DNA of 64,000 nt from the NCBI RefSeq assembly GCF_028281565.1, contig NZ_JANQJQ010000021.1:248001-312000 (forward strand), read 5' to 3'. This document shows positions 8,627 through 25,839 of this stretch, in pieces. A program made the position numbers and the translations under genes. The notes beneath the pieces are model-generated. The model was not told the DNA's origin and made no database searches. It was given only the letters and a program-made list of their open reading frames with translations. Source of the stretch: Seonamhaeicola sp. (GTDB lineage: Bacteria; Bacteroidota; Bacteroidia; Flavobacteriales; Flavobacteriaceae). Position 1 is the stretch's first letter; the number at the start of each line of letters is the position of its first letter.

Positions 8627-8671
8627 TAAAGACTCCCCGATGTTTATATAGGGGTTTCAGATAGAATTGTC

Positions 8672-8691
8672 ATTCCCGCGACGGCGGGAAT
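8672..8691. repeat. Short palindromic intergenic repeat (ATTCCCGCGACGGCGGGAAT)
   Basis: ATTCCCGC...GCGGGAAT inverted repeat in intergenic DNA. Confidence 0.6.
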
Positions 8692-8700
8692 CTAAAATTA

Positions 8701-15797: not shown

Positions 15798-15807
15798 ATT
15801 TCTGCAG

Positions 15808-15885
15808 TCCTGAACTTGTTTCAGGATCTTTTTAATTAGTAATCGATTTTTATTTTATGAGATGCTGAAACGAGTTCAGCATGAC
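15808..15885. repeat. Two short intergenic inverted repeats
   Basis: TCCTGAACTTGTTTCAGGA (15808-15826) and TGCTGAAACGAGTTCAGCA (15863-15881). Confidence 0.6.
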
Positions 15886-15894
15886 AACAAGTTG

Positions 15895-17337
15895 TCAATA
15901 CTTTATACACACATTTTTCGCCTGTGTAAAAAACCGTAAGGCTTCAAAACCACCTTCACGACCAACACCACTGGCTTTTACACCTCCAAACGGCGTTCGT
16001 AAATCACGTAGCATCCAGGTGTTGATCCAAATAATACCTGCCTGCAATTGGTTACTCATGCTCATGGCGCGCTTCAAATTATTGGTCCAAATAGTGGCTG
16101 ATAACCCGTATTTAACAGCATTAGCCATTTTTAATGCTTCTTTTTCACCTTCAAAGGGCATGATAGTCACAATCGGACCAAAGATTTCTTCCTGGTTGAC
16201 CCTGCAATCATTGCTGTCAATTTCAATGATGGTGGGCTCAAAATAATAGCCGTTTTCATAACCATCAACCGTTACTTTATGGCCGCCACAAAGTAGGGTT
16301 CCGCCTTCATTTCCGGCAATATCTATATAACCGGCTACTTTTTCAAGATGCGATTTCGACACTAAGGCTCCGATATCGGTGTCTGGGGCAGACGGATGTC
16401 CGACCTTTAGTTGTTTCACTTTTTCAACAAAATCCGTTTTAAATCTGTCATAAATGGAGGCTTCCACAAAAATCCTGCTTCCACAAAGGCAAATTTGCCC
16501 TTGGTTTGCAAATGATGAACGCACCGTGGTTTCCAACATAGCGTCATAATCACAGTCCGAAAAAATGATATTGGGGTTTTTACCTCCTAACTCTAAAGAA
16601 AGTTTTTTAAACATAGGAGCTGCTGTTTTAGCTATATGTGCCCCGGTTGTTGTACCGCCGGTGAATGAAATGGCTTTAATGCCTGGATGTTCAATAATGG
16701 CTTGTCCGGTGGTATGGCCTGATCCGTGTACAATATTTAAAACCCCTTTTGGCAGGCCTGCTTCCGTGCAAATGTCTCCCAACAGAAAAGCAGTCATGGG
16801 TGTCACTTCACTGGGTTTGGCGACTATACAATTTCCTGCTGCAATAGCAGGTGCAATTTTCCAGGTAAATAAATAGAGTGGGAGGTTCCAGGGTGAAATG
16901 CAACCAACCACACCAATAGGTTGCCGCAAGGTAAAATTCATGGCATGCTGGCCAACACTTTCGTGACTTTCACTGGCAAATTGGGTGATGGCATTTCCAA
17001 AAAAACGAAAATTACTAGCGGCTCTTGGAATATCTACAGATCTGGCTAAGCTTATGGGTTTACCATTGTCTTTACTTTCGGCTTCTGCAAAACGCTCTAA
17101 GTTGGCTTCAAGTAATTCCGAGATCTTAATCAGGAGTCTGCTACGGGCTTCCAAAGTAGTTTGCGACCAAGCTGGGAAGGCTTCTTTAGCAGCCAGATAG
17201 GCCTGTGCTACGTCTTCCTTTGAAGAATCAGGGATGTGCCCGTAAATGTCGCCATCAGCTGGACTGTAGTTGTCCAGCCAATTATCATTAACCGGATCTA
17301 CAAATTGACCGTTTATGTAGTTTAATACTTTATTCAT
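15895..17337 (-). CDS. Aldehyde dehydrogenase, 2-aminomuconate/2-hydroxymuconate 6-semialdehyde dehydrogenase-like
   Basis: ALDH motifs LSLELGGKNPNIIF, FANQGQICLCGSR; located in kynurenine cluster. Confidence 0.85.
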   Translation of the reverse strand: MNKVLNYINGQFVDPVNDNWLDNYSPADGDIYGHIPDSSKEDVAQAYLAAKEAFPAWSQTTLEARSRLLIKISELLEANLERFAEAESKDNGKPISLARSVDIPRAASNFRFFGNAITQFASESHESVGQHAMNFTLRQPIGVVGCISPWNLPLYLFTWKIAPAIAAGNCIVAKPSEVTPMTAFLLGDICTEAGLPKGVLNIVHGSGHTTGQAIIEHPGIKAISFTGGTTTGAHIAKTAAPMFKKLSLELGGKNPNIIFSDCDYDAMLETTVRSSFANQGQICLCGSRIFVEASIYDRFKTDFVEKVKQLKVGHPSAPDTDIGALVSKSHLEKVAGYIDIAGNEGGTLLCGGHKVTVDGYENGYYFEPTIIEIDSNDCRVNQEEIFGPIVTIMPFEGEKEALKMANAVKYGLSATIWTNNLKRAMSMSNQLQAGIIWINTWMLRDLRTPFGGVKASGVGREGGFEALRFFTQAKNVCIKY

Positions 17338-17346
17338 TTTGTCAGG

Positions 17347-17362
17347 TCGAGCGCAGTCGAGA
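17347..17362. repeat. REP-like palindrome, left boundary of GIY-YIG unit
   Basis: TCGAGCGCAGTCGAGA; exact reverse complement of 17694-17709. Confidence 0.85.
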
Positions 17363-17363
17363 C

Positions 17364-17684
17364 CTATTCCTTTTCTGGGTTATATTTTGAATGAGATGCA
17401 TTTCTACATTCCGCTAATATTTGCAATAAATTATATTCTCCTTTAGCGAGAGCAAATTTCTTTTGAGCACTCCAGTTTTTAATCTTTTTCTCGAAAAGAA
17501 TAGCTTGTTTTATGTCATTGAACTCCTGATAAAAAATCAATTCTAATGGTCTTCTTTTGTATGTGAAACAATTTTTATTCAACCCTCTTTGATGTTCTTC
17601 AAAACGCCTTGAAATATTATTAGTGATACCTGTATATGTCAATCCATCTGAGCACTTCAATATGTAAACAAAATAGCTTTTCAT
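17364..17684 (-). CDS. GIY-YIG nuclease family protein (UPF0213/YhbQ-like, stand-alone)
   Basis: YFVYILKCSDGLTYTGITNNISRRFEEHQRGLN...RRPLELIFYQEF...AILFEKKIKNW. Confidence 0.92.
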   Translation of the reverse strand: MKSYFVYILKCSDGLTYTGITNNISRRFEEHQRGLNKNCFTYKRRPLELIFYQEFNDIKQAILFEKKIKNWSAQKKFALAKGEYNLLQILAECRNASHSKYNPEKE

Positions 17685-17693
17685 TGTAAACCT

Positions 17694-17709
17694 CTCGACT
17701 GCGCTCGAG
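17694..17709. repeat. REP-like palindrome, right boundary of GIY-YIG unit
   Basis: TCTCGACTGCGCTCGA; exact reverse complement of 17347-17362. Confidence 0.85.
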
Positions 17710-17726
17710 GAGACATCGTCTTAATA

Positions 17727-18128
17727 TTAAACCTTTTTATACGCTACCACTTTAATCTCTACCAACAGATCCGGGTGGGGTAACTGATGTACTGCCACAG
17801 TGGTTCTTGTCGGGCCGGTCTCAGCATCAAAGAACTCAGCATAGGCTTTGTTGTAGCCGCTAAAATCATTCATATTAACTAAAAAAGTAGTAATATCAAC
17901 CACATCTTTTAGAGAGGCTCCTTCGCTTGCCAGGTTCTTTTCTATATTTTTTAAAACTTCCCGGGTCTGAACTTCTATATTAAGCTGTTTTGTTCCCATG
18001 TCATCTATAGTATCAGCACCGGCAATGGTGTTATCAGGCCTTCGGGAACTGGTTCCCGAAACATATATAAAATCACCAACCCGTTTGGTGTGCGGGTAAG
18101 CGCCTCTTGGTGTTACTTTATCGCTCAT
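17727..18128 (-). CDS. RidA family protein, probable 2-aminomuconate deaminase
   Basis: RidA/YjgF pattern ([42 protein letters not shown]) in kynurenine cluster. Confidence 0.8.
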
Positions 18129-19573: not shown

Positions 19574-19602
19574 AATGAAACATCTTTTATTAAGGAGATG
19601 CT

Positions 19603-19616
19603 TCGACTGCGCTCAG
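19603..19616. repeat. REP-like repeat (TCGACTGCGCTCAG)
   Basis: Same family as the GIY-YIG-flanking repeats; context GATGCTTCGACTGCGCTCAGCATGACA. Confidence 0.75.
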
Positions 19617-19627
19617 CATGACATAAT

Positions 19628-25531: not shown

Positions 25532-25728
25532 ATCGGATTTTATTTTCCTAAATAAGACGTATAAAAATACAAAACCTTAAAATTTGGAGGGATACTTATG
25601 TTATTTCTAGTGAAATTCTGGAAGAATTTGGTACTTTGACCAAGTTCAGCAGAACCATCGAGAAGTAGACGTTGTCGAATGTGTGTCTTCGAGAGCCTCA
25701 GACAACGTAATCGTACTTTCGTGTCACA

Positions 25729-25742
25729 CTGAGCGCAGTCGA
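25729..25742. repeat. REP-like repeat (CTGAGCGCAGTCGA)
   Basis: Same family as GIY-YIG-flanking repeats; context CACTGAGCGCAGTCGAAGTG. Confidence 0.75.
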
Positions 25743-25839
25743 AGTGCTCCAGAAGACATGCTTTAATAATACCGCATCAGAATAAACATATATGAGATCG
25801 CCACATCACGCCACAAGCGTGATTCGCAATGACAATAAA

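Follow-up and report, generated by a model that had tools for sequence, protein, structure and literature searches.

A stand-alone nuclease gene between palindromic repeats in the kynurenine operon

In the window, that is, the entire stretch of 64,000 nucleotides analyzed here, the ALDH (15895-17337) and RidA (17727-18128) genes of a kynurenine operon are separated by a 376-bp cassette (17340-17715, minus strand), the putative insertion unit. The cassette encompasses an ORF for a stand-alone, UPF0213-like GIY-YIG nuclease of 106 amino acids (aa) with conserved catalytic residues (17364-17684, minus strand) and a REP at each end. The L-end REP, TGTCAGGTCGAGCGCAGTCGAGACC (17340-17364, plus strand), has an outward TGTC tag and is located at the gene's 3′ end, where it shares one base with the stop codon, and the R-end REP (17691-17715, minus strand), which reads TGTCTCCTCGAGCGCAGTCGAGAGG on the minus strand and CCTCTCGACTGCGCTCGAGGAGACA on the forward strand, ends 6 bp before the start codon. 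Both ends are palindromic and outward-tagged, and they are distinct from each other (TGTCAGG..GACC and CCTC..GGAGACA). The first-pass annotation of this DNA described a GIY-YIG ORF between perfect inverted repeats, and both parts of that description are accurate: Pfam assigns the protein to GIY-YIG (E = 4e-18), and the arm TCGAGCGCAGTCGAGA at 17347-17362 has its exact reverse complement at 17694-17709. The full REPs are larger than these 16 bp, with 17340-17362 and 17693-17715 pairing at 87%.

The inverted repeat is not a product of chance, given that the 14-mer core is present in 14 copies in the 5.27-Mb genome, compared with 0 for the reversed control, and that the window contains 5 matches with at most 3 mismatches where 1.05 are expected, a count that none of 100 shuffles reached. 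Among the additional matches in the window, initially taken for solo copies of the same core, those at 19599-19623 and 25722-25746 are members of a sister class, TTCGACTGCGCTCAG, copies of which lie on either side of two further GIY-YIG genes in this genome. The window also contains a REPIN-like inverted pair of the class CCTGAACTTGTTTCAGG, between the ALDH and SDR genes of the kynurenine operon (15803-15886), with this class likewise bracketing other GIY-YIG genes of the genome, and a solo TGTCATTCCCGCGACGGCGGGAATCT repeat of a common CGTC-like type (8668-8693).

A likely active, structure-specific nuclease

GIY-YIG is the only Pfam domain in the protein, and Y7, Y17, G19, R27, H31 and E65 are invariant among the homologs. 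As in UPF0213 nucleases, there is one GIY-YIG domain, in which the catalytic Tyr, Tyr, Arg and Glu are conserved, and the nearest solved structures are those of UPF0213 proteins, followed by the branched-DNA nuclease SLX1. The dN/dS values among relatives are mostly 0.04-0.2, that is, the gene evolves under purifying selection. Judging from the invariant catalytic residues, the selection and the nearest structures, the protein is likely to be an active, structure-specific nuclease.

The cassette as a probable mobile unit

In many relatives, the RidA and ALDH genes are only 5-11 bp apart, so that the empty site anticipated by the first-pass annotation does exist; this site is read across genera because the congeners contain no close RidA match. 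In one genome (G025), the same junction carries a decayed cassette. Close homologs of the nuclease gene occupy four different junctions of the kynurenine operon, within a conserved gene order and all in the operon orientation, and on the protein tree, many forks of which are unresolved, homologs from different junctions intermingle. In Polaribacter (L086), a single operon contains two cassettes that are 83-97% identical inside the TGTC..GACA ends and about 43-67% identical outside, with the change in identity falling near TGTC and GACA; another locus (L068) is similar. Tandem cassettes are found elsewhere, some with internally deleted genes. Because cassettes are duplicated, arranged in tandem and found at several junctions, local copying seems to be frequent. 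At one locus in G025 (L236, contig C20), there are three tandem cassettes, two of which encode a nuclease shortened by an internal in-frame deletion, possibly a step towards gene-less elements.

These changes bear on the possibility that the nuclease performs a host function, namely, that it resolves repeat cruciforms as a housekeeping enzyme, with the flanking repeats mainly controlling its own mRNA. The SLX1-like fold and the purifying selection fit such a role, as does Chryseobacterium, where the homologs reside at one conserved locus, mostly without flanking repeats. We nevertheless consider a resident housekeeping gene very improbable, since the cassettes shift position, duplicate and decay.

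Gene-less elements with the ends of the cassette

The genome that contains the window carries 4 intact short gene-less elements with two different ends (L-end GGTC..GACC, R-end CCTC..GAGG) and the same polarity as in the gene cassette, separated by unrelated spacers; a fifth element is degraded. The 4 intact pairs (R1) have the features of REPINs, that is, they are intergenic, inverted REP pairs with outward tags and a short spacer, and the system also displays features of insertion sequences and MITEs, namely, terminal inverted repeats and non-autonomous derivatives. Across the sampled sequence of about 800-864 kb, 9 of the 10 neighboring inverted repeat pairs are in the tag-out arrangement. 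Repeats matching those at the ends of GIY-YIG genes from this genome are present in these sampled stretches, with 0 for the reversed controls, the repeat densities being biased because the stretches were partly chosen for known copies. The end pair of the window cassette folds as one long hairpin (z = -5.8), whereas the single arms alone are weak (z about 0).

This genome has a REPIN of the window class that the congeners with an alignable site lack; both there and at the empty RidA|ALDH sites, the intergenic flanks are too diverged for the junction, and with it any target-site duplication or the exact cleavage point, to be placed. Another REPIN, between atpA and atpG (L294, 2803-2874), is common to three species of the genus, and the rest have other sequence at this position.

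These elements also have to be accommodated by a homing-type scheme, under which a free-standing selfish endonuclease would cut alleles that lack it and be copied in by repair, the repeats serving not as transposition ends but as landing sites or regulatory hairpins. The GIY-YIG fold is known from homing endonucleases, and cassettes at neighboring junctions of one operon, along with the tandem copies, are what such an enzyme could produce. However, homing does not account for elements that have both of these ends but no gene; furthermore, a 106-aa protein leaves scant space for an additional DNA-binding domain, and the empty-site sequences contain no evident common target. Hence, we regard homing as quite unlikely.

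Repeats bracket GIY-YIG genes and follow the nuclease lineage

GIY-YIG homologs are found at 12 places in the genome that contains the window, most of them between inverted TGTC-tagged repeats, the class of which differs by nuclease lineage. With bracketing defined as an inverted repeat with a score of at least 28 located no more than 150 bp from either end of the gene, 45 of 79 homologous loci, mainly from other species, are tightly bracketed, compared with 3 of 1703 random gaps and 2 of 144 neighboring ORFs from the same loci. Random gaps and neighboring ORFs served as controls; permutation of left and right flanks between loci is unusable, as the same repeats recur from locus to locus. Coincidental bracketing is ruled out by these frequencies (45/79 versus 3/1703) together with the core count of 14 versus 0. 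The spacing is nearly fixed as well: in most kynurenine-operon cassettes, across genera, the 5′ REP ends 6 bp before the ATG, and the 3′ REP, where detected, begins 0-4 bp past the stop codon. A different arrangement is seen in a class of small GIY-YIG genes (about 76-86 aa) that adjoin tRNA genes, often in tandem arrays and often at contig ends, where the flanking repeats are tRNA fragments instead of REPs (L239 in G032:C1, L218 in G033:C6, L216 and L208 in G017:C19 and G017:C18, respectively, and L010/L200 in the window's genome).

Among 84 bracketed genes, repeat similarity correlates with protein identity (r = 0.79, Mantel p = 0.001), a statistic that is inflated by host relatedness but is complemented by a same-genome comparison that speaks against a host effect. 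Cross-species gene pairs with at least 60% identity share the repeat in 95% of the cases, compared with 8% for same-genome paralogs below 60% identity, so that the host genome does not explain the repeat type. This co-variation supports the view, put forward in the first-pass annotation, of a REP/RAYT-like unit in which a GIY-YIG nuclease replaces the Y1 transposase. In one genome (G103), the variant that brackets the GIY-YIG gene is the commonest among the near-matches listed for that genome.

The association between the nuclease and the repeats is well supported. The two also co-occur, as in the survey that the first-pass annotation had suggested: the core was detected in 16 of 20 genomes with a close homolog, compared with 18 of 67 without a match (p = 5e-6). 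The outcome that the first-pass annotation named as pointing to coincidence, equal repeat frequency in genomes lacking the ORF, applies in part, since many copies are present in a few genomes that have no close homolog. G087 has 25 exact cores and G104 has 9, both in the absence of any stand-alone GIY-YIG gene; G091 has 26, its only stand-alone GIY-YIG gene belonging to another repeat class. The repeats can therefore persist, or move, without the nuclease; in G087 and G104, the nuclease may have been lost once the repeats had dispersed, or something else may move them.

The second of these options leads to a passenger scheme, in which the TGTC/CGTC repeats are mobilized in trans by another transposase, and a GIY-YIG gene that came to lie between two copies is carried along as cargo. 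Apart from the two repeat-rich genomes without the gene, this scheme draws on the greater number of gene-less repeats than of gene-bearing cassettes. However, this scheme predicts neither a separate repeat type for each nuclease lineage, nor near-fixed distances of the gene from both ends, nor purifying selection, and the only Y1 transposase genes in the genome are three weak matches, located elsewhere, with ends that lack these repeats. We accordingly judge a passenger gene unlikely.

Bracketed GIY-YIG genes in other phyla and the CGTC-tagged REPs

Searching plasmid records with tblastn revealed homologs in 33 records. Outside the family, 12 of the 16 loci examined are bracketed, compared with 1 of 72 control genes, and that one is a neighbor of a cassette. 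The hosts are proteobacterial, cyanobacterial and other replicons, and the repeats are mostly CGTC-tagged. In Azospirillum lipoferum, the CGTC-tagged CGTCATCCCCGCGAAGGCGGGGATCCA brackets a GIY-YIG gene that parts sufB from sufC, and in Neisseria gonorrhoeae, dRS3-like CGTCATTCCCGC..GCGGGAATC surround the gene; further bracketed loci come from Shinella, Sphingobium, Novosphingobium and Rhizobium.

CGTC-tagged REPs are known from five phyla, and a 2013 survey described this superfamily as apparently lacking a dedicated transposase (PMC3733652). The superfamily (dRS3, RPE-4/6 and others) resembles the repeats described here in the CGTC/TGTC/CCTC tag and in the mostly head-to-head pairs, and among the species of that survey, A. 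lipoferum, N. aromaticivorans, S. meliloti and Neisseria have a bracketed GIY-YIG gene in our data (PMC3733652). The window repeats have the unpaired tag but differ in their shorter stems, which do not begin with AT (PMC3733652). The stem of 8-9 bp starting with AT, with a loop of 4-5 nt, is present in the TGTCATTTCCGCGAAGGCGGAAATCT repeats of other GIY-YIG genes and absent from the window repeat, and the CCA tail is present at several alpha-proteobacterial loci and likewise absent from the window repeat.

A model of nuclease-driven repeat dispersal

We believe that the 376-bp unit is probably a REP-bracketed nuclease cassette, the nuclease of which mobilizes its cognate repeats in the manner of REP/RAYT, with an unrelated enzyme. 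Under this model, a GIY-YIG nuclease of the UPF0213/SLX1 type, small, structure-specific and probably active, is encoded between two inverted copies of its cognate TGTC-tagged palindrome and would recognize the folded palindrome pair, that is, a hairpin or cruciform together with the TGTC/CGTC tag, bind it and cut at the tags, releasing or copying the pair. Such cutting would drive dispersal, usually of the miniature pair alone and sometimes of the nuclease gene too, with the new sites being intergenic, often nearby and in the operon orientation. The gene-less two-ended elements would then be miniature, REPIN-like derivatives of the cassette. Weighing against the model are the genomes rich in the core in which a nuclease of the matching class is absent, the mostly repeat-free locus in Chryseobacterium and the weak folding of the single window arms. 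Mobilization by the nuclease, which the first-pass annotation also proposed, is what we infer from this comparative evidence.

Whether the model extends further is, in our estimation, evenly balanced: in Bacteroidota, Proteobacteria and Cyanobacteria alike, stand-alone GIY-YIG nucleases could be the transposase-like partners, missing until now, that are dedicated to TGTC/CGTC-tagged REPs, making up a GIY-YIG-only class of transposable elements convergent with REP/RAYT. The location of the gene between its own repeats and the match between repeat type and lineage yield a concrete candidate enzyme for the CGTC REPs, testable in ordinary laboratory strains. Should mobilization be demonstrated, GIY-YIG nucleases would join the enzymes that disperse bacterial repeats, many "GIY-YIG nuclease family protein" annotations would gain a function, and the pairing would be categorically new.

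Comparison with known systems

The closest parallel is with the REP/RAYT (TnpA_REP) systems and REPINs of gamma-Proteobacteria, which similarly have a distinct palindrome-bracketed gene for each repeat class, repeats that occur mainly as tagged inverted pairs in intergenic regions, and a repeat type that co-varies with the enzyme (PMC3116915, PMC2817692, PMC8266576). As in REP/RAYT, the enzyme gene here is flanked by its own REPs. The RAYTs are reported to be non-mobile single copies, unlike the GIY-YIG cassette, which duplicates and changes position (PMC3116915). The REP/RAYT enzyme is an HUH Y1 transposase and the tag is GTAG, whereas here we find a GIY-YIG nuclease and a TGTC/CGTC tag. Membership among the RAYTs is ruled out by the GIY-YIG-only Pfam profile, the lack of a GTAG tag and the Y1 genes, which lie elsewhere and are unbracketed. 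Thus, the cassette would work like REP/RAYT but is not a member because both the enzyme fold and the tag differ.

With the stand-alone GIY-YIG proteins of UPF0213 (1zg2, 1ywl), the window protein shares the sequence profile (E = 1.5e-18 to 1zg2) and the predicted fold; in the literature searched, no repeat partner is reported for these proteins. The fold match to SLX1 would suit the cutting of folded or branched DNA, although the sequence similarity is weak and SLX1 is larger, acts with SLX4 and is not linked to repeats. The I-TevI-type GIY-YIG homing endonucleases have the same catalytic fold; compared with these, the system in the window has neither a separate DNA-binding domain nor an intron and includes gene-less derivatives with the same ends. 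The open-licence literature searched yielded no papers tying GIY-YIG to REP, REPIN, RAYT, dRS3, YhbQ or UPF0213. As far as this literature goes, the nuclease and the repeats are each known, and what is new is their pairing.
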